Translations under genes and position numbers: made by a program
Notes under the pieces: model-generated
What the model saw: only the letters and a program-made list of their open reading frames with translations
Told to the model about the DNA's origin: nothing
Databases searched by the model: none
In this document: positions 4,270-34,944 of the stretch, piece after piece
How positions within the stretch are numbered: the stretch's first letter is position 1
How the letters are laid out: every line of letters starts with the position of its first letter
DNA from: Lentisphaerota bacterium
GTDB taxonomy: Bacteria > Verrucomicrobiota > Lentisphaeria > Victivallales > Victivallaceae
Reading direction: 5' to 3'
Length of the DNA: 34,944 nucleotides
Assembly (NCBI GenBank): GCA_015061775.1
Contig: SUVY01000024.1
Span: 1-34,944, forward strand

Positions 4270-7032
4270 TCAACGCTCCTGTTTTCTCAGGCACATCACT
4301 CCGGCTCCGATCACCACGGGAACGGTCACAGCAAGGAGGAGTATCTGCAATTTAAGATCCGAAAATCCAAGTGCTTTATTGAAGACTCCGCGACTGATAA
4401 GCAGCATGTGGCTGGTGGGATAGATACTGCCTATTATCCGCGCCATTCCGGTCTGAGTGGAAACCGGATTGACCATTCCGCACATCTGAGTTGCGGGGAG
4501 CACCGTTCCGAGCATGGTGAGGAATATCACAGCGATCTGACTGCGGGTGACTGAGCTTGCCAGCAACCCCATTCCGGTAGAGCAGAAACAATACAGAACA
4601 AGAGCAAATATCAGCGTGAACAAGCTTCCTTTTACCGGAACTCCGAATATCGTCACAGCCATTACTATAAGCATCATGAAGCTCAGACATGAAAACAGCA
4701 CGTAAGGCATCTGTTTACCAAGCATGAACTCAGTCCGGGTAAGCGGAGTAACATACAAATTGATGATCGAGCCCATCTCTTTTTCTCTTACGACTGCAAG
4801 AGCAGCAAGAATAGCCGGAATCATCATAAGAAGTATCGGTATCACTGCCGGAACCATCGCCGGAAGGCTCAACACATCAGGATTATAGCGGTATCGCGTC
4901 TCGACGTTGACCAGCTGTGTTTGAGATTGTCCGTGTTTTCCTGCATATTTGGCAAGCCAGCTGCTGTGCATGGCGGAAATATATCCGTTGACCGTCTCGG
5001 CGCGGCTGGGCATGGAACCATCGACCCAGAAACTTATTTCCGGAGAATTGCCCTGCTCGACATCCCTGCCGAAATTGGGAGGAAGCTCGACGACCATACT
5101 CAGCTCTCCGGAACGCATACGGCGGTCGATATCAGCATAATCTCTCACCGGAGCTCTTTCCACAAAATAACGTGATGAACCGGCAATATTGAGCGCATAT
5201 TCACGGCTCAGTTCACTCTGATCACGGTCGAGAACTGCGTATGGAAGGTTTTCGACATCCATAGTGATACCAAATCCCATTACCACCATAAGCAGCAACG
5301 CTCCGAACAGCGCGAGCGTCGCACGGATGGGGTCGCGCATGAGTTCAAGTGTCTCTCTCCAGAAACAACTGTACCAGCGTTGAATACTGAAAACAGAGCT
5401 GAAAAACTCTGCAACAGCTCCCCTTTTTTCTGTATGGAGTTCTTCCTGTGCAGTTGCCGCATACTCGATCTTTTCGCGCGATGCCGGATCAGCATCCTCA
5501 AGATAACCTATAAAAGCCTCTTCAAGTGTAGCAGCATTGCGCTCACGGACGATATTTTCCGGAGTATCACAGGCGAGCGAACGGCCTGCGTGCATTAGAG
5601 ATATACGGTCACAGCGTTCGGCTTCATTCATAAAGTGGGTGGTGATAAATATAGTTACTCCATCACGGCGTGACAACTCGATGATGAGCTCCCAGAAGAG
5701 ATCACGCGCCACAGGATCGACTCCGGATGTCGGTTCGTCAAGAATAAGTATCTTGGGGTTGTGGATCACCGCCGCCGCAAGAGAAAGGCGCTGCTTGATA
5801 CCGAGCGGAAGTTCCGCAGGAACTGTATCGGCAACACTTTCAAGCTGAAAACGGTGGATCATCGCCTCAACACGCTCTGAAACCTGAGCTTCCGGAATGC
5901 GGTAAAGCCGCGCATAAAGCATGAGGTTCTGGCGAACTGTAAGCTCTCCGTAAAGCGAGAAAAGCTGGGTCATGTACCCGAGGTTGAGACGGACTGCCAT
6001 GTTATTGGAGTCAACTGGAGCTCCGAACAACTCCGCCCTGCCCTCGGTGGCTGGAAGAAGACCGGTGAGCATGCGCATCGTCGTAGTCTTTCCGCAGCCG
6101 TTGGAACCAAGAAAGCCGAAAATCTCTCCGCGCCGTATTTTGAAACTCACGTGGTCAACTGCGGTAAAATTTCCGAAACGCTTGGTGAGACCTTCTGCCT
6201 GAATTGATATATCGTTGTCGTCGGCGCAAAGGGGCGGAACAGTCAACTCCTTGTGTCCGGTTCGGCTGCTCTCCGGAAGAAGCTCGATAAATGCGGCGTC
6301 AAGGTTGTCTTTACCGGTCTTTTCAAAAATCTCCTGCGGAGTTCCGGTATCGAGGATCCTTCCGTTATCCATTGCAATAAGCCAATCAAAACGCTGAGCC
6401 TCATCCATGTAGGCTGTCGCCACTATGACTGTCATCTGAGGCTGCTCCTTGCGGACGCTGTCGACCAGATCCCAGAACTGGCGCCGGGCAAGCGGATCGA
6501 CTCCGGTGGTTGGTTCATCCAGAACCAGCAAATCGGGATCATGGATAAGGGCACAGCAGAGACCGAGCTTCTGTTTCATGCCTCCGGAGAGCTTTCCTGC
6601 AGGACGGTCGAGAAACGGGTAGAGCCCGGTACTGCGGGTCAGACGGTCGATACGCTTGCGGCGTTCCGCGGCATTATGTCCGAAAAGTCTTCCGAAAAAC
6701 TGCAGGTTTTCTTCAACAGTCAGGGTAAAATAGAGGTTTTTACCCAATCCCTGAGGCATATAGGCGATTTTCGGACACACTTTGTCGCGATGTGCCTTGC
6801 TGCGCATATCTCCGCCGAGAACCTCAACTTCACCGCTTTCACCGAGGGCGTGAGCTCCGGTAATCAGAGAAAGCAGCGTTGATTTTCCGACGCCGTCCGG
6901 ACCGATGAGTCCGACGAGCCGCCTCGGAGCTATTTCCAGGGAGAGATCGTCAATCGCAGTTACCCTGCCGTATTTGTGGGTCACATGAGAGACCCGCACG
7001 ACGGCTTTGGATGAGGTACTGTCTCCCATCAT
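4270..7032 (-). CDS. Double-ATPase/permease ABC transporter fusion (RbbA-like)
   Basis: A 920-residue fusion of two ABC ATPase domains and one ABC-2 permease domain. ATPase 1 (about 10-240) has Walker A GPDGVGKS (44-51), signature LSGGMKQ and Walker [14 protein letters not shown]. ATPase 2 (about 275-500) has Walker A GSNGCGKT, a degenerate signature LPLGIKQ and Walker [14 protein letters not shown]. The permease part (about 560-915) has a first membrane helix ([19 protein letters not shown]), an external domain and five more helices, with [21 protein letters not shown] as coupling motif. Domain order and length match RbbA/YhiH proteins (about 910 residues), in which the second signature is also altered as I recall it. 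The ATG overlaps the stop of the upstream fusion-protein gene (ATGA), which implies translational coupling. The likely role is export of drugs or envelope components; the substrate is unknown. Confidence 0.9.
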
Positions 7033-8126
7033 TTTTCAGCCTTTTTGAGTGTTTTTCCCTTCTCTTTGAGCAACATGAGCTGCTCAGGCCATTTTGCGTT
7101 GGGGTCGAGCTGCACCCATGCGACTCCGGGAAGTCCGGTCTTGACATACTCGACGTACTTCTGGAGAAGCTCAGGAGAGATCCTCGCTTTGATGCGGAAC
7201 ATCAGCTTCTGACGCTCGATTTTGGTTTCAACCGTCTTGGGAGTGAACTGAGCCACACTCGCCACATAGGATATCTTCGCCGGAATGGGTACTGTCGGAA
7301 GCGCATCGAGAACAATGCGGACATCTGCTCCGAGCTTGACTTTTCCTGCGACTGCTTCAGGAAGATAGAACGTCATGTAAACATCGGTAAGATCTACGAG
7401 ATTGAGTACTCTGCCTCCGGCATTGAGCACCTCTCCGGGTTCGGAAATGCGGTACTGTATCCTGCCTCCGAGCGGAGCCGTGAGCTTGCTGTCGTCAATA
7501 TCCGCCTGAATACGTGCGATATCTGCCTCTGCAGCCTTGATATTTGCCTTCTCGCCCTCCGCGGCAGCTTTGGCTGCGCTGATTGCCGCCTCAGCCTGCT
7601 TGACATTGGCTTGGGCTGCGGCAAGTTCAGCTTTGGCGGTAAGGTAGATCGTTTCGTCATTTTCAAAGGTCTGCCGGCTCATCGCGGAGTCTTTGAGAAG
7701 CTTTTGTGCACGCTCATAACGCTTTCTTGCTCCGTCAAGACTGCTCTCCTTCTGGAGAACGACCGCTTTTGCAGCCTCAAGTTCGCTCTGACGGACTCCG
7801 ATATTTGCAACGGCTCCGGCTTCAGCTGTGACCGCTTGAGCGTGTTTGGCTTTTGCTTGGGCGAGCTCGGCTTCGAGGGTGTTGGTCTGCATTTTTGCGA
7901 GCAGCTGTCCTTTTTTCACCATGTCTCCCTCATTGACATCGATGCTTTCGATGCGTCCGGCAAGCTTGGAGGAAATATTTATTTCAGTAGCTTCAAGTCT
8001 TCCGTTGCCGCAGGCAAAACCGGGATTGCGGTATATGGCGTTTTCGCGATAAGATTTCACCAGATAAAATCCGATTCCGACGGCGGCGATGAGGATCATC
8101 GCAATTACTATTTTTTTCATATTCAT
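7029..8126 (-). CDS. HlyD-family periplasmic adaptor (membrane fusion protein)
   Basis: A 365-residue adaptor that would link the inner-membrane ABC exporter encoded downstream to an outer-membrane TolC-like channel. Residues 4-22 form an uncleaved signal anchor ([20 protein letters not shown]). The first half of a biotinyl-lipoyl domain follows ([29 protein letters not shown]), then a long alanine-rich coiled coil (about 70-205), then the second lipoyl half ([24 protein letters not shown]) and beta-barrel segments. The start has AAAGAG 7 nt upstream and a near-ideal promoter at 8170-8198. The gene overlaps the RbbA-like gene by 4 bp. It is YhiI/YbhG-like by context. No TolC gene lies in the window. 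Confidence 0.9.
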
Positions 8127-8169
8127 AGCTTTACTCTTTCTATATTACGGTTATAATTGCTCTGAAAAT

Positions 8170-8290: not shown

Positions 8291-11200
8291 TTATGCTATG
8301 ATATCGAAGGAGCTTTTCAGGTCGGTTTCGATGCGGGCTTTGAGATCTACCCAGTTACCCGCGTAGCCGTTGCCCCAGTAACCGAGACCTCCCCAGCCGG
8401 TGTTGTGCTCACGGAGAAGAAGGTCGGCGCAGCCGTCTCCGTTGTAGTCTCCGGCAGCTTCTATCTCGAAGCCTTCTCCGAGTGTTCCGCGCCAGCGTTT
8501 GGTTTGGCTGTTTCCGTCATCCCAGACCCACACGTTGTTGGTGTTGCGGTCGAGCACCATGATGTCGTCTATTCCGTCTCCTTCAAAGTCTCCTACGGCG
8601 GCGACTTCCCAGCCGCTTTCGAGCTTGCCGACGCTCTGGGTCTTCCAGTTCCAGGTGGCAAAGGTGGTGTCCTGATTTGTCCAGAGGTAAACTTGGTGGT
8701 TGTAGTTGTTGACCATCACAAGTTTATCCATTCCGTCATCGAAAGAGCCCGCTCCTTCGATAGTCCAGGTGGAAAAGTCTCCCTCGTTGACGTGGAAGAT
8801 ATCCTTGTAGGTGGTTCCTCCGAGGACAACTCCGATGCTTCCGTTGGTATCGTAGATGAGGATATCGTCGTATTCGTCTCCGTCGAGGTTGGCGAGGCAT
8901 TGGGTGTTGAATGAGCCATCGACTTTACAGAGGTTGACGTAACCGTAACTGCCTTTGCGCAGGTCTGTCCATGCGGCGAAACGGTTTCCGACTCCGTTAT
9001 AGAGCAATACTCCGTCATAATCAACTTCGGAACCTTTGAAGTGTCCGACTCCGGCAACACGCCAGAGGTCGGCTTCTGCGCCGCTCCACTCCCAGACTCC
9101 GCGCCACGACGGACGGACGTTTCCGTCGGTCGCCATATAACCCACTTTGCCCTGCTCAGCATCCCAAGCCAATATCTGTGACACTCCGTTTGAGAGGAGA
9201 TTGGTATCGGCGACCTTTACCACAGCTTTTTCCTGCACAGAGAGCGTCAATTCACCGTTGACTTGAGTAAGCTCATACAGTCTTCCGTTGATTTCCTGCG
9301 TTTTGCCATTGACAGTAAGTGTATGCAGAGTGCCGCTTTCATTGTTGAGAGACATAGTGCCGCTGACATCGGCAGCATTGCTCATAAGTTTGTATGTTCC
9401 GCACTTCTGGTCGGAGGATACTGTAATAGAGCAGCCTTTTATTCCACTTAAATATTGCTTGTTGTTGATGATGAAGTCGTCTTTGAAGCTGCGTTCGGTA
9501 AGGTCAAAAACAACATCGGCGTTATTGGTTTCACAGAGTGTACGCAAGGTAACATCTCCGCCAAAAATCAGCTTGCCTGAGAGAGTGGCATCTGAACCGA
9601 TAAATTCTGCTCCGTGCTCGAGGGTAAGTCCGTTGCGTACTGAACCGCCTTCGACTTCGAGAACGCCGGAAATGCTTGCTCCTGAGATGTACTGATTTTC
9701 TCCGACATAAGTCCAGCCGTCGGAGACCTCGACCTGTGTCTCAATGGCGTCAACGGTAATTGCGTTTGAGTACTTGCCCATAACAGGAATCGCGTTATCG
9801 GCAGAAGAGACCGCATAGAAGCTGTATGTTGCCGCGTCAGGGTTGGTTATCTTCCAAGTGAACTTGCCCGTACTGTCAACGTTGCCGATAAACTCACCGT
9901 CATATCCTGAAGCATCATTGTCGCAGTAGATGCTCACCTCGGTTCCGCTCTCGGGAACTCCGCAGTCGATGACTACGGTGCGGTCGTTTGAAAGCGTTGC
10001 TGCCGCATTTTTAGCGGCAAGTGACTCGCTGCCGCCGAGCACGATTCCGGTATATGTTGCGCTCGCATCGATACTTTCCAAGCTCCATGTTCCGGCTTTG
10101 GAGGCTTTTACGGCAATGGTCACTCCGCTGTCGGTGGAAGAGACCAGTTCAAATTCTTTGCCGGCATTGGCGGAAATACTGTCAATGCCATAATAAACCT
10201 TTCCGTTTCCATCGGTAAGTACGCATAAGTCGGGAGATGTGGTGTTGACGGTAAGAAGAACTGTTTCGCCGTTACCCTTAATCTGCCAGCTGCATTGAGA
10301 AGCGGCTGATCTTTCGGAAGCATAGTCATTTAATTCGCTCTTTATTTCGGAGCCGTTCACAATAGTCCAGTTGCCGTTGTAGTCGAACTTTACTCCGATG
10401 GAGAGAGTCTGACCGAAGAACTCCTGAGTTGTCCATACGGCGTAGTAATCATTTGCGGTGGTGCTGTCGTTGATGTACTGCACCATGATATTGGCACTGT
10501 TTGCCACACCGATTCCGTATTTGGTGAGATCGACGCTGCGGGTTCCCTGCACCATGAAGGAGCCGCTTGAGTTGATTTTGAAGCCTGCGCTGATGGTGGC
10601 GAGGTCTGCAACGGTGATGCTGCCTGAGCCTTCGAGGCAATTACTCTTCCAGTCAACGGATATTCCAACGCTTCCGGTAACCAGACCGCCGAGAATCTTA
10701 ACAGTACCCGAGCCTGACAAGGAGTCGTAGGTCAAAGTTCCATCAATATCTATATCAGCCAGAGTGTAACTGTTTCCGGATATAGTAACTTTTTTTCCGT
10801 AATATAAGCCGAAACCGGCACTTATAGCGGTGGGTTCATCATCCGAACAGATGTTTTCAACACCGCCACGGACCGAGTCAACAAAAAATCCTGTTGCGCC
10901 GAGAGCGACATGCATACCGGAGGCTTCGACCTTTATGGTGTTGATTTTCTGATTGACAACTTCAAACTCGCCGCTGATGGTGTCGTCAAGGTATTTAAAA
11001 CCGATTTCCGCCTCACCCGACCAGGAGTTCCGGGTAGTATCAACTGCAAGTTTGCCTTCATTGAGGACATATCCGTTGGCAAGGCTTATATTTTCAAAAC
11101 TGATTTCACCGACGACTTCAAACTCAACGTCTTTGAAGTCTTTCGGAGTCTTGACAGAAATATATTTGTCTCCGGTGAAATCCGCCTTGAGTGAGGCATC

Positions 11201-12910
11201 TTCTCCGCTGCTCAGGAAAGAAAATCCAAGTGTACCCTGCAATTTCATCTCATATTCGGAGTCACTTATATTCACTACTGCATTAACATCGGAAACCTCG
11301 ATATCAACTCCGGCGTATTTCCACTTGATCTTTTCGATGGATATCTCGGTGGTATCTTTTTCGAGGCTCTTGGAGATTGCCTCGGCTAAAGCGTCGGTCA
11401 TGGTGCTTGCGCCGTCAAGGCTGGTGTCGCCCTCTATCTTTTCAGGAACGACTACAAGGTCCATAGTGTGGTCTTTGACTTGACCTCCGCTGGTTGCGGT
11501 GATGATGACTTCGGTCGTACCGTATCCGGTGGCGGTATCGGTGATTTTTCCTGTGGTTCCGGAAAACTTTCCGGTATTGGGGTCTATTTTCAGCCAGTCA
11601 GGAGCCTGGGTGAGCGTATAATTATTATAGCTGTTGCCGCGGAAAGCCTTATCAGGAAGCTGTATTTGAATTTCCGTGTTCTCTTGGGAGGCACTCTGAT
11701 GTTGACTATATTCGCTGTTGACCACAACTGAGAGAACTCCTGTCTCGTCATCAAGTTTGAGCAGGAAACTTATATCACCGACTTTGAGTGCCTTTTTCAT
11801 ATAAAGCGAAAGATTGCCATGACTGGCTCCATCCTCGCTCTTTATGGTAATAGTTTTGTTGAAAGTTGAGGCATTGGAAGCGAGCAGATATGTACCTGCG
11901 ACCTGTTTTTCATCATAGGTTAAAGTATAGGTGGGTGTTCCGCTAATCAGAGAAAGATTATTAACAATATAATCGTTATCAGGTGCTTCATTTGCTATCG
12001 TAAAGTCAATAATAGCCCATTGGTAAGCAGAAACGAATGCACCTTCAGATATATCCAATCCGCCTTTCGCCACGCCGCAGTGGTAGATGGTCATCCTGAC
12101 CCCGGAATTTACGGTGGTGCTGTTCGCCTCGCCGCCGAGGTCGATGTACATACTGACCCCGGAATTTACGGTGGTGCTGTTCGCTACGCCGCCGGAATAG
12201 ATGAACATATAGCCACCATTTACGGTGGTATTGTTTGCGACGCCTCCAGTGTAGATATGCAGGTATCCACCGTTAACAGTCGTACTGTTAGCGACGGTGT
12301 GGGCATGAACAGTCATATACTGATCTATGGTCAATCCGGTAATGGTGTTGGAGACAAAGGTGACATTTGCGCAATCTTCAACAAAAACACCTCCTCCATT
12401 TTCCTTGATTGCGATTGCCTCGCCGCCGGAAGAGATGTGCATCAAGCCCCCGCAATTTACGGTGGTGTTGTTCGCCACGCCGCCGGAAGAGATGTCCATC
12501 AAGCCCCCGCAATTTACGGTGGTGTTGTTCGCCACGCCGCCGGAGTAGATGTACATCCAGCCCCCCTTTAAGGTGGTGTTGGTCGCATCAGAATAATGAT
12601 AATAATGATTATCACTACTAATATAATTGTTGGCGGAAGATTCCAGTGTCACTGAGTTGCGAAAAAGGGATAAAATACGCGTCAATTCCCCAGTGTAAGT
12701 ATTATTGTAATGGTAATAATTGTAATATTGCGTTGCTGCTTCTGTATTGATACTCAAATCAGTACCGTTATTGTTGAGAATCTCATAGAGAAGATCTGAG
12801 TCATCGTTGACTGCATTTTCGCTTTGCGAAACAGATACGGTCGCAAGATAAACATCCGCAATCTGCGGAATACATTGCACGCCGCCACTTGCAATATTTT
12901 GCTGTTCCAT
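8291..12910 (-). CDS. Giant surface/secreted protein with AIDA-type and FG-GAP-like repeats
   Basis: A 1539-residue, Thr/Ser/Gly/Asn-rich, acidic protein. No N-terminal signal peptide is visible: it opens MEQQNIASGGVQCIPQIADV and then SQSENAVNDDSDLL. Residues about 100-290 are AIDA-type 19-residue repeats (GGVANNTTVNCGGLMDISS). Residues about 415-495 resemble a putative-Ig/cadherin-like domain (LTQAPDWLKIDPNTGKFSGT). A long beta-rich region follows. Residues about 1300-1510 carry FG-GAP/VCBS-like calcium-loop motifs (LDGDEYDDIL, FEGDGIDDIMVLD, YNGDGCADLLLRE). It ends LKSSFDIIA. There is no autotransporter barrel at the C-terminus. I infer export by a type I system using the C-terminus and a role in adhesion or polymer binding. 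The ribosome site is GAGGG 9 nt before ATG. A close paralog lies at 32516-34944. Confidence 0.85.
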   Translation of the reverse strand: MEQQNIASGGVQCIPQIADVYLATVSVSQSENAVNDDSDLLYEILNNNGTDLSINTEAATQYYNYYHYNNTYTGELTRILSLFRNSVTLESSANNYISSDNHYYHYSDATNTTLKGGWMYIYSGGVANNTTVNCGGLMDISSGGVANNTTVNCGGLMHISSGGEAIAIKENGGGVFVEDCANVTFVSNTITGLTIDQYMTVHAHTVANSTTVNGGYLHIYTGGVANNTTVNGGYMFIYSGGVANSTTVNSGVSMYIDLGGEANSTTVNSGVRMTIYHCGVAKGGLDISEGAFVSAYQWAIIDFTIANEAPDNDYIVNNLSLISGTPTYTLTYDEKQVAGTYLLASNASTFNKTITIKSEDGASHGNLSLYMKKALKVGDISFLLKLDDETGVLSVVVNSEYSQHQSASQENTEIQIQLPDKAFRGNSYNNYTLTQAPDWLKIDPNTGKFSGTTGKITDTATGYGTTEVIITATSGGQVKDHTMDLVVVPEKIEGDTSLDGASTMTDALAEAISKSLEKDTTEISIEKIKWKYAGVDIEVSDVNAVVNISDSEYEMKLQGTLGFSFLSSGEDASLKADFTGDKYISVKTPKDFKDVEFEVVGEISFENISLANGYVLNEGKLAVDTTRNSWSGEAEIGFKYLDDTISGEFEVVNQKINTIKVEASGMHVALGATGFFVDSVRGGVENICSDDEPTAISAGFGLYYGKKVTISGNSYTLADIDIDGTLTYDSLSGSGTVKILGGLVTGSVGISVDWKSNCLEGSGSITVADLATISAGFKINSSGSFMVQGTRSVDLTKYGIGVANSANIMVQYINDSTTANDYYAVWTTQEFFGQTLSIGVKFDYNGNWTIVNGSEIKSELNDYASERSAASQCSWQIKGNGETVLLTVNTTSPDLCVLTDGNGKVYYGIDSISANAGKEFELVSSTDSGVTIAVKASKAGTWSLESIDASATYTGIVLGGSESLAAKNAAATLSNDRTVVIDCGVPESGTEVSIYCDNDASGYDGEFIGNVDSTGKFTWKITNPDAATYSFYAVSSADNAIPVMGKYSNAITVDAIETQVEVSDGWTYVGENQYISGASISGVLEVEGGSVRNGLTLEHGAEFIGSDATLSGKLIFGGDVTLRTLCETNNADVVFDLTERSFKDDFIINNKQYLSGIKGCSITVSSDQKCGTYKLMSNAADVSGTMSLNNESGTLHTLTVNGKTQEINGRLYELTQVNGELTLSVQEKAVVKVADTNLLSNGVSQILAWDAEQGKVGYMATDGNVRPSWRGVWEWSGAEADLWRVAGVGHFKGSEVDYDGVLLYNGVGNRFAAWTDLRKGSYGYVNLCKVDGSFNTQCLANLDGDEYDDILIYDTNGSIGVVLGGTTYKDIFHVNEGDFSTWTIEGAGSFDDGMDKLVMVNNYNHQVYLWTNQDTTFATWNWKTQSVGKLESGWEVAAVGDFEGDGIDDIMVLDRNTNNVWVWDDGNSQTKRWRGTLGEGFEIEAAGDYNGDGCADLLLREHNTGWGGLGYWGNGYAGNWVDLKARIETDLKSSFDIIA
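12060..12590 (-). repeat. 57-bp tandem repeats encoding AIDA-type 19-mers
   Basis: Within the surface-protein gene, units with a period of 57 bp (19 codons) repeat in frame. Two neighbouring copies around 12424-12537 are almost identical at the DNA level; the shared phrase GCAATTTACGGTGGTGTTGT recurs exactly 57 bp apart. Units toward 12060 are more diverged. Each unit encodes a version of GGVANNTTVNCGGLMDISS, which in AIDA-type passengers forms one turn of a beta-solenoid. Confidence 0.8.
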
Positions 12911-13414: not shown

Positions 13415-14554
13415 TCAGAACTCGCTGTAATTTCCGAGGAAGACTACCTCTTCGGCTTCGTTCTCAAGCTCGTCGAAAAGCTGCGGGATTCCGGGGGAAA
13501 TCACCTGCGCGTCGAAGTCAAGATAGAAGCTGTACTCAAAATCACGTCCCGGGGTCGGGCGGCTCTCGAGTTTCGTCAGGTTCAAATCAAGTGCAGCGAA
13601 CTTTGAAATCACATTATACAACGCTCCCGGTTTATTCGGCAGCACCACGAACAGGCTTATCTTGTTCGCTCCGGGATAGATCTCGGGCTTGCGCGAAATA
13701 CAGATGAACCGCGTATAGTTATAGTCCGTATTCTGGATGTTTTCCGGAAGTGCCTTCAAGCCGTACAAGGAAGCGCACTCGCGCGCTCCGATCGCAGCGG
13801 CGTCTCGGCGTCCGGACTGTGCGACGATCTGCGCTCCCGTCGCGGTACTGTCGCTCACGGTGAGCTGGACGTCTTTCAGGTTCTTGAGGTATTTTCCGCA
13901 TTGTTTGAACGCCTGCTCATGCGAAAAGATCTCCTTGATGTCCTCAAGTTTCACTCCATCGTTGGTAAGCAGCACGTGCGATACCTGCTGGCGGATGCTG
14001 CGTACGATATGGAAATCATATTTCTTCATCTGGTCATAGACCGAATCGACCGTTCCGCTGGTGGTGTTGTCGATGGGAAGAAGTCCGTAATCGCAGAGTC
14101 CCTCCTGCACAGCCTGGAACACTCCTGCAAAGTTGCGGAAGTACATGATGTTCGCCACTTTGAACATACGGTCACAGGCGATTTGAGCGTAGGCGCCCTC
14201 CACGCCCATACAGGCGACGGTAGCCGCCTCAGGGAATATCTGCGGAGTGTTTTGAAGAGTTTCCTCAATGCGTTTGGCGATCTTTCCGTGTCCCGGCATA
14301 AGCTCGCGCTGGTAAGCCTTGCTCTGCTCGATGATCGTTCGGAACAGCGCAACTGAGGGTCTGCCCATGTGCTCCTTTGCCTCGTTATAGATGCGCATAA
14401 GTATCCTGCGCTCGCGGGATTTATCCAGTACAGCCGCGTTATGCAGGCGTTTATATTCTGCTATATCACGCACTATTTCCATGCGTTTCTGGAAGAGTTC
14501 AAGCATCTGGCTGTCAAGGTCATCCAGCTGTGCACGGTATTTTTCAAGTCCCAT
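13415..14554 (-). CDS. pheA: Chorismate mutase / prephenate dehydratase (P-protein)
   Basis: Bifunctional enzyme making phenylpyruvate from chorismate through prephenate, the committed steps to phenylalanine; cytoplasmic. About 379 residues. The N-terminal AroQ-type mutase helix bundle (about 1-85) shows LDDLDSQMLELFQKRMEIV and KSRERRILMRI. The prephenate dehydratase domain (about 105-285) shows MGVEGAYAQIA and LLPIDNTTSGTVDSVYD. The C-terminal ACT domain (about 295-370) shows NKPGALYNVISKF and LTKLESRP; in this family it binds Phe for feedback inhibition (the ESRP motif is the usual Phe site). The start is the ATG at 14554, with GAGGG upstream; a GTG at 14563 has no room for a ribosome site. 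The gene follows the DAHP synthase gene by 21 bp and is therefore under the same attenuator. Confidence 0.95.
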   Translation of the reverse strand: MGLEKYRAQLDDLDSQMLELFQKRMEIVRDIAEYKRLHNAAVLDKSRERRILMRIYNEAKEHMGRPSVALFRTIIEQSKAYQRELMPGHGKIAKRIEETLQNTPQIFPEAATVACMGVEGAYAQIACDRMFKVANIMYFRNFAGVFQAVQEGLCDYGLLPIDNTTSGTVDSVYDQMKKYDFHIVRSIRQQVSHVLLTNDGVKLEDIKEIFSHEQAFKQCGKYLKNLKDVQLTVSDSTATGAQIVAQSGRRDAAAIGARECASLYGLKALPENIQNTDYNYTRFICISRKPEIYPGANKISLFVVLPNKPGALYNVISKFAALDLNLTKLESRPTPGRDFEYSFYLDFDAQVISPGIPQLFDELENEAEEVVFLGNYSEF

Positions 14555-14575
14555 CTTATCCACCCTCTTATATTT

Positions 14576-15589
14576 TCAGTTGTTATTACTGCTTCTCAAT
14601 TCAGCGTATCCTTTGAGCTCTTTCATCAACGAAGCAAAGGACTCCATCGTAAGGCTCTGGGCTCCGTCGCACAGCGCACAGGCGGGGTTGTTGTGCACCT
14701 CGATTATCAGCGCATCCGCTCCGATAGCGACTGCCGCCTTGGACAGCGGAGCGACAAAACGCGATATTCCAGCCGCGTGGCTCGGATCGATGACCACTGG
14801 CAGATGGCTCAACGTTTTGAGGCTCGGAACGGCAGATATATCAAGAGTGTTGCGGGTGTAGGTCTCGAATGTACGGATTCCGCGCTCGCAGAGCATGACG
14901 TTTTCGTTTCCGGAAGCCATCACGTACTCGGCACTCATAAGCAATTCCTGATAGGTGTTGGCAAGTCCGCGCTTGAGCAGGATCGGCTTTTTGCAATGTC
15001 CCAGCTGTTTGAGCAGCTCGAAGTTCTGCATATTGCGCGCTCCGACCTGAATGACATCGACCTCATCAAAAAGATCAAGCTGGGAGATATCCATTATCTC
15101 TGTCACGATCGGAAGCCCGGTATCTTTCTTCGCCTTGAGCAGCAGACGGATACCCTCATCGCGCAACCCCTGGAACGCATAAGGTGAAGTGCGGGGTTTG
15201 AACGCTCCTCCGCGGAGCAGAGTAGCTCCGGACGCTTTGACGCTGCGCGCAACGGTGATGATCTGATCCTCGTTTTCCACCGAACAGGGACCGGCGATGA
15301 CGGTGAGACCTCCGTCTCCGATCTTCTGACTTCCGACCTGGATGACTGTATCGAGCGGGTGGAATTTACGGTTGGCATTCTTGAACGGCTCCTGGATGCG
15401 CTTGACGTCTTCTACGATCTCCATCTGTTTGATGAGGTCGATATCAAGATGGTGGGTGTTTCCTATCAGTCCGAGAATCGTCTGGCTGGTTCCCTCGCTG
15501 TGGTGCACCTGAAAGTTGCGCTCTTTCAACCATCGCGTCAGCATATCAAGCTGCGCAGCGGGGGCGTCTTTTTTAAGAATGATGATCAT
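14576..15589 (-). CDS. aroF: 3-deoxy-7-phosphoheptulonate (DAHP) synthase, class I-beta
   Basis: Condenses phosphoenolpyruvate and erythrose 4-phosphate, the first step of the shikimate pathway; cytoplasmic. 337 residues. The first about 70 residues form the ferredoxin-like regulatory domain of AroF(Bsu/Tma)-type enzymes (MIIILKKDAPAAQLDML). The TIM barrel holds VIAGPCSVEN, RGGAFKPRTSPYAFQGL, the IQVGARNMQNFELLKQLG strand and VIDPSHAAG with the metal-binding His. Length and motifs fit the family closely. The start ATG has GAGG 4 nt upstream. This is the first gene of the operon. The 5' leader carries a Phe/Tyr-codon leader peptide and a terminator (15636-15795), so the flux-controlling first step and the Phe branch are regulated together. 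Confidence 0.95.
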   Translation of the reverse strand: MIIILKKDAPAAQLDMLTRWLKERNFQVHHSEGTSQTILGLIGNTHHLDIDLIKQMEIVEDVKRIQEPFKNANRKFHPLDTVIQVGSQKIGDGGLTVIAGPCSVENEDQIITVARSVKASGATLLRGGAFKPRTSPYAFQGLRDEGIRLLLKAKKDTGLPIVTEIMDISQLDLFDEVDVIQVGARNMQNFELLKQLGHCKKPILLKRGLANTYQELLMSAEYVMASGNENVMLCERGIRTFETYTRNTLDISAVPSLKTLSHLPVVIDPSHAAGISRFVAPLSKAAVAIGADALIIEVHNNPACALCDGAQSLTMESFASLMKELKGYAELRSSNNN

Positions 15590-15635: not shown

Positions 15636-15666
15636 AAAAAAAGCTCCGTAACCTTTGTCACGGAGC
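15636..15666 (-). terminator. Attenuator terminator in the aroF-pheA leader
   Basis: On the minus strand GCTCCGTGAC (15666-15657) pairs with GTTACGGAGC (15652-15643), ten pairs with one G-U, loop AAAG, followed by seven T (15642-15636). It lies after the leader peptide gene and before the aroF start at 15589. Confidence 0.85.
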
Positions 15667-15729
15667 CCGTTGCTTTTTTTCAATCTGTCAGCGTCAAATA
15701 TTTCAACATCCAACCATGCAACAGCGGGC
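15665..15729 (-). promoter_or_regulatory. Predicted antiterminator helix of the aroF-pheA attenuator
   Basis: On the minus strand GCCCGCTGTTGC (15729-15718), within the end of the leader peptide gene, can pair with GCAACGGGC (15673-15665): GCCC with GGGC and GTTGC with GCAAC, with a 3-nt bulge. This sequesters the nucleotides just before and at the base of the terminator stem. A ribosome reaching the stop codon at 15703 would cover the upstream arm and free the terminator. A ribosome stalled on the Phe/Tyr codons would leave it available. Confidence 0.6.
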
Positions 15730-15795
15730 CCCGTTTCTAAAGTAAAAACGGTAGCCAAAATAAAAGTAAAAGCTGTTGTAAATTTTGCCTGACAT
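15703..15795 (-). CDS. Phe/Tyr-rich leader peptide of the aroF-pheA attenuator
   Basis: A 30-codon reading frame whose only evident role is to sense charged tRNA-Phe and tRNA-Tyr by ribosome stalling. It starts ATG TCA GGC at 15795 and carries NSFYFYFGYRFYF at residues 7-19: five Phe and four Tyr within 13 codons, plus a Tyr at residue 6. It ends after a Cys-rich tail (ARCCMVGC) with TGA at 15703. AGAGAAAG upstream may be the ribosome site. The frame lies between a strong promoter (15844-15871) and the terminator at 15636-15666, as in classical pheL or trpL leaders. Aromatic density this high is very unlikely by chance. The mix of Phe and Tyr suits control of DAHP synthase, which feeds both amino acids. 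A longer frame across the same DNA (15573-15935) has no such logic and was rejected. Confidence 0.85.
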   Translation of the reverse strand: MSGKIYNSFYFYFGYRFYFRNGARCCMVGC

Positions 15796-15843
15796 AATAT
15801 TCTTTCTCTATTTGAACAGATGCTTTCCACCTGCTCTGAGGTT

Positions 15844-15871
15844 AATATATACCTCATATCCGACTTGTCAA
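15844..15871 (-). promoter_or_regulatory. Strong sigma70-like promoter of the aroF-pheA operon
   Basis: On the minus strand consensus TTGACA (15871-15866) and TATATT (15849-15844) are spaced 16 bp. The predicted start near 15837 gives a leader of about 200 nt to the attenuator T-run and about 250 nt to the aroF ATG. Confidence 0.7.
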
Positions 15872-32515: not shown

Positions 32516-34944
32516 TTACGCGATGATGGCAAAACTGCTGTTGAGGTCGGTTTCGATGCGGGCTTTGAGATCTACCCAGTTGCCCGCGTAGCCGTTGCCC
32601 CAGTAGCCCATGCCTCCCCAGCCGGAGTTGTATTCTCTCAAGAGAAGGTCGGCGCAGCCGTCTCCGTTGTAGTCTCCGGAGGCTTCTATCTCGAAGCCTT
32701 CTCCGAGGGTTCCTCTCCAGCGTTTGGTCTGGCTGTTTCCGTCATCCCATATCCAGACGTTGTTGGTGTTGCGGTCGAGTACCATGATATCGTCTATTCC
32801 GTCACCTTCAAAGTCTCCTACGGCGGCGACTTCCCAGCCGCTTTCGAGCTTGCCGACGCTCTGGGTCTTCCAGTTCCACGTGGCAAAGGAGGTATCCTGA
32901 TTTGTCCAGAGGTAAACTTGGTGGTTATAGTTATTTACCATTACAAGTTTATCCATTCCGTCATCGAAAGAGCCTGCTCCTTCGATAGTCCAGGTGGCGA
33001 AGTCGCCCTCGTTGACGTGGAAGATGTCTTTATAGGTAGTGCCTCCGAGGACGACTCCGATGCTTCCGTTGGTGTCGTAGATGAGAATGTCGTCGTATTC
33101 GTCTCCGTCGAGGTTGGCGAGGCATTGGGTGTTGAATGAGCCGTCAACTTTGCAGAGGTTGACGTAACCGTAACTGCCTTTGCGAAGGTCTGTCCACGCG
33201 GCGAAACGGTTTCCGACTCCGTTGTAGAGCAATACTCCGTCATAATCGACTTCAGAACCTTTGAAGTGTCCGACTCCGGCAACGCGCCAGAGGTCGGCTT
33301 CTGCCCCTGACCACTCCCAGACGCCCTTCCATGACGGACGGACGTTTCCGTTGGTCGCCATATACCCCAATTTTCCCTGCTCGCTGTCCCAAGCCAATAT
33401 CTGTGACACTCCGTTTGTGAGCAGATTTGTGATCGGGATTTCCATTGCGGCTTTATCGCTGATCGTCAACAGGAAGTCTCCGTTTTCGCCGGTCAAATCG
33501 TAAAGTCTGCCTTCAATTTCCTGTTGTCCGCCATCGACGCTGAGAGTATATGTATTTTTTTCCAGGATGAGATACATCGTGTCGCTGATGTATTCGGCAT
33601 TACTCATAAGTTTGTAACAACCGGTTTTCTGGTCGGTTGAAACAGATATACTGTAACTGTTTGCTCCGTTGAGATTTTGCTTGTTATTGATGATGAAGTC
33701 GTCTTTGAAGCTGCGTTCGGTAAGATCAAAAACAACATCGGCGTTATTGGTTTCACAGAGTGTACGCAAGGTAACATCTCCGCCAAAAATCAGCTTGCCT
33801 GAGAGAGTGGCATCGGAACCGATAAATTCGGCTCCGTGCTCAAGGGTAAGTCCGTTGCGTACTGAACCGCCTTCAACCTCGAGAACGCCGGATATGCTTG
33901 CTCCTGAGATGTACTGATTTTCTCCGACATAAGTCCAGCCGTCGGAGACCTCGACCTGTGTCTCAATGGCGTCAACGGTAATTGCGTTTGAGTACTTGCC
34001 CATAACAGGAAGAGCATTGTCGGAGGAAGAAACAGCATAGAAGTTGTATGTTGCCGCGTCAGGATTGGTTATTGTCCAAGTGAACTTGCCCGTACTGTCA
34101 ACGTTGCCGATAAACTCACCGTCATAGCCTGAAGCGTCATTGTCGCAGTAGATGCTCACCACGGTTCCGCTCTCGGGAACTCCGCAGTCGATGACTACGG
34201 TGCGGTCGTTTGAAAGCGTTGCTGTCGCATTTTTAGCGGCAAGTGACTCGCTGCCACCGAGCACGATTCCGGTATATGTTGCGCTCGCATCGATACTTTC
34301 CAAGCTCCATGTTCCGGCTTTGGAGGCTTTTACGGCAATGGTCGCTCCGCTGTCGGTGGATGAGACCAGTTCAAACTCTTTGCCGGCATTGGCGGAAATA
34401 CTGTCAATGCCATAATAAACCTTTCCGTTTCCGTCGGTAAGTACGCATAAGTCGGGAGATGTGGTGTTGACGGTGAGAAGCACTATTTCGCCTTTGCCCT
34501 CAATATGCCAGCTGCATTGTGAGGCGGCTGTTGCGGCAAAGTCTTCTCCGACGGCATAGTCGCTTAACTCGCTCTTTATTTCGGTGCCGTTCACAATAGT
34601 CCAGTTGCCGTTGTAGTCGAACTTTATTCCGATGGAGAGAGTCTGACCGAAGAACTCCTGAGTTGTCCATACGGCGTAGTAATCATTGGTGCTGGTATTG
34701 TCTTTGATATACTGCACCATGATATTTGAGTTGTACGCTAAACCGAGACCGTACTTGGTAAGATCGACGCTCTGGGTTCCCTGCACCATGAAGGAGCCGC
34801 TTGAGTTGATTTTGAAGCCCGCGCTGATGGTGGCGAGATTGGCTACGGAGAGATTTCCGTGTCCTTCAAGACAATCGGTCTTCCAATCTATGGATATTCC
34901 GGCTTTACCGGTGACGAGACCTCCGAGGATTTTTACTGTCGCCT
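32516..34944 (-). CDS. Giant surface/secreted protein, paralog of the 8291-12910 product (C-terminal part, cut by window edge)
   Basis: The frame is open to the right edge of the window; about 808 C-terminal codons are visible and the true start lies outside. The sequence aligns end to end with the C-terminal half of the protein at 8291-12910: TVKILGGLVTG and ATISAGFKINSSGSFMVQGT near the edge, then the same beta-rich modules, then the FG-GAP/VCBS-like segment (LDGDEYDDIL, FEGDGIDDIMVLD, YNGDGCADLLLRE) and the terminus LNSSFAIIA. It differs by a short insertion (GEDFAAT region, around 34538-34560) and by a strongly diverged block at about 33430-33690. No terminator hairpin is obvious after the stop; repeat copy C lies there instead. 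Same inferred role and export route as its paralog. Confidence 0.88.
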   Translation of the reverse strand, partial: ATVKILGGLVTGKAGISIDWKTDCLEGHGNLSVANLATISAGFKINSSGSFMVQGTQSVDLTKYGLGLAYNSNIMVQYIKDNTSTNDYYAVWTTQEFFGQTLSIGIKFDYNGNWTIVNGTEIKSELSDYAVGEDFAATAASQCSWHIEGKGEIVLLTVNTTSPDLCVLTDGNGKVYYGIDSISANAGKEFELVSSTDSGATIAVKASKAGTWSLESIDASATYTGIVLGGSESLAAKNATATLSNDRTVVIDCGVPESGTVVSIYCDNDASGYDGEFIGNVDSTGKFTWTITNPDAATYNFYAVSSSDNALPVMGKYSNAITVDAIETQVEVSDGWTYVGENQYISGASISGVLEVEGGSVRNGLTLEHGAEFIGSDATLSGKLIFGGDVTLRTLCETNNADVVFDLTERSFKDDFIINNKQNLNGANSYSISVSTDQKTGCYKLMSNAEYISDTMYLILEKNTYTLSVDGGQQEIEGRLYDLTGENGDFLLTISDKAAMEIPITNLLTNGVSQILAWDSEQGKLGYMATNGNVRPSWKGVWEWSGAEADLWRVAGVGHFKGSEVDYDGVLLYNGVGNRFAAWTDLRKGSYGYVNLCKVDGSFNTQCLANLDGDEYDDILIYDTNGSIGVVLGGTTYKDIFHVNEGDFATWTIEGAGSFDDGMDKLVMVNNYNHQVYLWTNQDTSFATWNWKTQSVGKLESGWEVAAVGDFEGDGIDDIMVLDRNTNNVWIWDDGNSQTKRWRGTLGEGFEIEASGDYNGDGCADLLLREYNSGWGGMGYWGNGYAGNWVDLKARIETDLNSSFAIIA

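Follow-up and report, generated by a model that had tools for sequence, protein, structure and literature searches.

The region upstream of the aroF-pheA operon in the window (the whole stretch of 34,944 nucleotides that was analysed) is, with high confidence, best read as a transcription attenuator of the trpL/pheL type that works through the ribosome in the classical way and would sense charged Phe-tRNA and charged Tyr-tRNA (probability about 0.93). The parts were found in the order and at the spacing expected of an attenuator. The promoter, leader, antiterminator and terminator named by an earlier sequence-only reading of this DNA were all recovered, together with a protector hairpin that it did not mention. 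All of these features, and the operon itself, lie on the minus strand.

The genes downstream of the regulatory region are those that had been claimed. Domain matches identified aroF (14576-15589) as a type I DAHP synthase with a ferredoxin-like domain and pheA (13415-14563) as a chorismate mutase-prephenate dehydratase (P-protein), the ACT match of the latter being below the Pfam cut-off. The source of the contig is a rumen bacterium of the phylum Lentisphaerota with a 2.7 Mb genome at 98% completeness, in which aroF is the sole strong DAHP synthase match. A second match, at contig C16, is a distant homologue (34% identity), and no type II DAHP synthase was found in the genome. Matches to trpE, trpF and trpA were likewise not found in this genome, while each of these searches was positive in 14 of 14 control genomes. 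At this level of completeness, their absence predicts that the host is a tryptophan auxotroph. With these Trp genes missing, and with matches to prephenate dehydrogenase present alongside the P-protein and the one DAHP synthase, the aromatic amino acids that the host makes through its DAHP synthase appear to be Phe and Tyr, and a sensor of both would suit its needs. The search for further attenuators in the same genome covered part of the genome and two codon types, and revealed none among 20 sampled runs of His codons or among the 30 retrieved stretches with five Phe/Tyr codons in a row. Elsewhere in the window, a 381-aa ORF at 7011-8156 (plus strand) has no Pfam match and lies opposite an HlyD-type ORF (7029-8126, minus strand); it is probably spurious. 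Two large proteins with FG-GAP repeats, encoded on the minus strand at 8291-12910 (1539 aa, with AIDA-type stalk and Ig-like matches in addition) and at 32516-34789, are likely to be cell-surface proteins.

The putative leader gene (15703-15795) was read as an ORF of 30 codons with an ATG start and a TGA stop, exactly as first described, and is conserved in relatives. Its predicted peptide, MSGKIYNSFYFYFGYRFYFRNGARCCMVGC, is enriched in codons for the products of the operon, with 10 of the 30 being Phe or Tyr (5 TTT, 4 TAC, 1 TAT) and 9 of these falling within the 13-codon stretch NSFYFYFGYRFYF. Given the Phe/Tyr codon frequency of the window (8.0%), 9 or more in 13 would arise with a probability of 7.5e-8, a value that is uncorrected for the choice of the stretch. 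By eye, the ribosome-binding site is weakly SD-like. The promoter had been called consensus-like, and the consensus scan indeed gave 11 of 12 matches for the putative sigma-70-like site TTGACA-16-TATATT at 15844-15871. Because promoter-like matches across the region barely exceed those in shuffles (3 versus 2.0), this assignment leans mainly on the position of the site.

Between the leader and aroF sits an intrinsic terminator, deduced from folding and comparison, with a hairpin at 15641-15668 (−18.8 kcal/mol, z −4.7) followed by a T tract from about 15640; its earlier placement at 15666-15636 was essentially right. An antiterminator had also been correctly proposed, at 15729-15718 with 15673-15665, although these positions were slightly off. 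The main helix pairs 15734-15725 with 15669-15660, and a short inner helix pairs approximately 15723-15718 with 15674-15670. The 5′ arm (arm 2, 15725-15734, ACGGGGCCCG) lies within the leader gene, and the 3′ arm (15660-15674, from folding and the duplex test) overlaps the 5′ arm of the terminator. The 1:2 protector hairpin (15727-15756) is located inside the Phe/Tyr codon run, with 15756-15743 pairing with 15739-15727, and its 3′ arm overlaps the 5′ arm of the antiterminator. The antiterminator therefore excludes both the terminator and the protector hairpin that overlaps the regulatory codons. Taken alone, the protector hairpin of the window does not exceed shuffles by much in stability (z −1.26). 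Each of the 27 aligned Lentisphaeria leaders folds a hairpin that ends at the antiterminator arm.

From this arrangement, the following mechanism is proposed. Transcription would begin upstream of the leader gene. With Phe-tRNA and Tyr-tRNA plentiful, the ribosome would pass through the leader, the 1:2 hairpin would form behind it, and the terminator would then halt transcription before aroF-pheA. Were either tRNA scarce, the ribosome would stall at the Phe/Tyr codons and cover the protector hairpin's 5′ arm, so that arm 2 (15734-15725) would be released to pair with the terminator 5′ arm (15669-15660). The terminator could then not form, and aroF-pheA would be transcribed. A terminator and antiterminator would by themselves suit other sensors too, such as a metabolite riboswitch, a T-box or a protein-controlled terminator, in which case the aromatic ORF would be incidental. 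This was deemed very unlikely, as the Rfam scan of the window gave no T-box or other family at cut-off and, besides the hairpins, the conserved part is the ORF rich in Phe/Tyr codons. The matches below cut-off were at chance level, with the exception of a full-length match to Phe_leader (RF01859), which at 15.6 bits against a gathering threshold of 55 does not place the RNA in that family.

The attenuator is further supported by comparison with other DAHP synthase loci. Upstream regions were taken from the DAHP synthase homologues of genomes of the same genus, order and class, and a scan of 84,980 species genomes contributed its 80 best loci. Each region was searched for an ORF in which 6 or more of 11 codons are Phe/Tyr, with a terminator between this ORF and aroF. 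Both were found in 101 of 175 regions and in none of 3,500 dinucleotide shuffles, whereas the leader ORF alone, with no terminator required, was found in 1.8% of the shuffles. As the 175 regions include close relatives and duplicates (L007 and L049 are one locus) and are not all distinct, these counts are a measure of enrichment and not of independent events or origins. The sequence-only reading had named a lack of aromatic enrichment in the leaders of relatives as a ground for refutation, and these counts did not refute it. Phe and Tyr occur together in every one of the 101 leaders (in total, 532 F, 390 Y and 15 W). The positions of these residues differ freely between leaders, and the peptide is otherwise poorly conserved. 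The last observation bears on whether the ORF is the gene of a small hydrophobic protein with a function of its own, whose transcript ends at the terminator. The ORF is short and conserved and is flanked by a promoter-like site and a terminator, as would be consistent with such a protein, but the peptide is poorly conserved except for its Phe/Tyr content and a portion of the leader gene pairs with the terminator, making this extremely improbable.

The covariation of terminator and antiterminator that had been put forward as a check was observed in the Lentisphaeria leaders. RNAalifold picked out the terminator unprompted from 27 of them, and 8 of its 10 consensus pairs show compensatory changes. 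For the antiterminator, the pairs were counted on anchored blocks because the MAFFT alignment (A2) shifts L012-L014 by a few columns in the terminator. Among the 13 distinct arm combinations, 87 of 91 cells are paired, and 10,000 permutations never gave as many (mean 75.9, maximum 85); the sequences in this test are related and not fully independent, and the arms were picked as the best gapless match. Changes in the core of the helix include G-C to A-T (L009) and G-C to C-G (L142, L143 and L148), as well as G-C/G-T/A-T exchange. Individually, the antiterminator duplex was significant (p ≤ 0.05) in 34 of 46 tested Lentisphaeria leaders and in approximately 7 of 50 loci outside Lentisphaeria, with most Clostridia loci not significant, and the full mechanism is accordingly less secure outside Lentisphaeria. 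In the Oscillibacter group, nine leaders (L065, L078, L080, L090-L092, L094, L107 and L111) share a conserved GGTAAGGCT...GGTTTGGCTG stretch. An alternative pairing of GGTTTGGCTG with CAGCCGAACC was read there by eye. The stretch may pair with the arm and loop of the terminator, which suggests a differently built antiterminator.

At the C-terminal end of the leader, some motifs recur within lineages (FRKRGG, and GKA...GLAEN in Oscillibacter), as might be expected if the leader were a nascent-chain arrest peptide, in which a specific peptide together with free Phe or Tyr, rather than tRNA starvation, stalls the ribosome. The FRKRGG stretch, however, encodes arm 2, and in six loci including the window (L001, L002, L010, L011, L137 and L141) a 1-nt gap shifts the frame of this arm, so that the peptide reads FRNGA, FRSGA or FRGG while the helix is retained. 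The retention of the helix despite the changed reading frame says that arm 2 is, as judged from these sequences, under selection as RNA. An arrest peptide was rejected on this basis and is considered most improbable, the free variation of the Phe and Tyr positions among leaders being a further point against it.

The attenuator is not distributed over all DAHP synthases. No leader was found upstream of the most distant DAHP synthases examined, nor in some relatives of the same genus (L017, L018 and L020), and no leader with terminator was found before the second DAHP synthase copies of the same genus (L031, L032, L034, L035, L140 and L147). As these second copies form a clade of their own, the species that carry them seem to retain an attenuated DAHP synthase next to one that is not attenuated. 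The Lentisphaeria genus g48 (L130-L135, L138, L139, L145 and L051) has the same type of DAHP synthase with the leader and terminator undetected, and trpA is present in most of the g48 genomes listed.

A gene tree built with FastTree from 134 DAHP synthases places the leader-bearing enzymes in one group of 120 (support 98), with members from Bacillota, Lentisphaerota, Spirochaetota and Planctomycetota. Most other Lentisphaeria have DAHP synthases without a leader, and these fall outside the group. Within this one subfamily, the distribution is wide in Clostridia and the cases in Treponema and Planctomycetota are scattered. Cultured bacteria with the leader include Oscillibacter valericigenes (L065) and Angelakisella massiliensis (L103). 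The tree requires 20 or more switches between presence and absence of the leader, which implies that it is often gained, lost or missed in detection. A horizontal spread may be inferred, with the proviso that many of the entries are metagenome bins in which misbinning is possible. In 24 leader-bearing loci, aroF is followed by pheA; in the remaining 52 for which the sequence sufficed, no pheA was found, indicating that the sensor tracks aroF more than pheA.

The codon content of the leaders was compared with the Trp pathway. Trp codons occur in nine leaders of another Lentisphaeria family (f21), and trpA is present in all nine of those genomes. For the Lentisphaeria leaders as a whole, Trp codons are found in 9 of 19 genomes with trpA and in 0 of 27 without a trpA match (p = 8e-5), a comparison that is phylogenetically confounded since all cases are in one family. 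Within f21, the sole family that varies, the figures are 9 of 15 versus 0 of 4 (p = 0.087). The association is therefore regarded as a lead. It is conceivable, at somewhat under even odds, that the attenuator and this DAHP synthase subfamily were inherited together, partly horizontally, across gut and rumen Clostridia, Lentisphaerota, Planctomycetota and Spirochaetota, with the leader codons tuned to the repertoire of the host (Phe and Tyr throughout, and Trp only with the Trp pathway).

Leader-peptide attenuators are known from E. coli, namely, pheL-pheA (represented in Rfam by Phe_leader) and trpL. The present system resembles these in its leader rich in cognate codons, in its protector/antiterminator/terminator logic and in the P-protein encoded in the operon. 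It differs in that the first gene encodes a DAHP synthase, the codons are mixed Phe and Tyr, and the leader stop codon lies 3′ of the antiterminator arm. Another likeness is provided by C. glutamicum aroR-aroF, where, according to PMC11802643 (on Neshat et al. 2014), a leader with Phe-Tyr-Phe precedes the DAHP synthase gene, which is induced by stalling at the Phe/Tyr codons. Both systems place a Phe/Tyr leader ahead of a DAHP synthase gene, a likeness drawn from the description; aroR is from Actinobacteria and has a Phe-Tyr-Phe run, whereas ten aromatic codons are present here. Similarly by description, the Acholeplasma uORFC-13-1 aroF motif has a uORF with one or more Phe codons and a terminator before aroF, for which attenuation was proposed; its 24 representatives are from Acholeplasma and environmental sequences only (PMC8632094). 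In 2010, leader-peptide attenuation was described as known only from Proteobacteria and Actinobacteria, to which a first case in Bacilli was then added (PMC2965389). These His leader peptides before hisS/hisZ set a precedent outside the two phyla, for another amino acid and another gene.

A mixed Phe and Tyr leader on the first shikimate enzyme, which had been suggested to be new for a Lentisphaerota-like genome, is not new in kind, given aroR and the proposal for the Acholeplasma uORF; for Lentisphaerota, no report of leader-peptide attenuation was found in the open-access literature searched. Nor did that literature yield a report of attenuators with an aromatic leader ahead of DAHP synthase genes in Clostridia. 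The mechanism is thus already known, and it is the presence in Lentisphaerota and the wide occurrence in Clostridia that were not found reported.

Approximately 100 related loci from gut and rumen bacteria of four phyla have at least the leader gene and a terminator after it. That this many cases are seen on a single subfamily of genes suggests that, in these bacteria, the first step towards the aromatic amino acids is a widespread point of control. Furthermore, since Trp codons were found in Lentisphaeria leaders only in genomes with trpA, the set of leaders offers a natural series in which to study how the sensing codons track pathway content.
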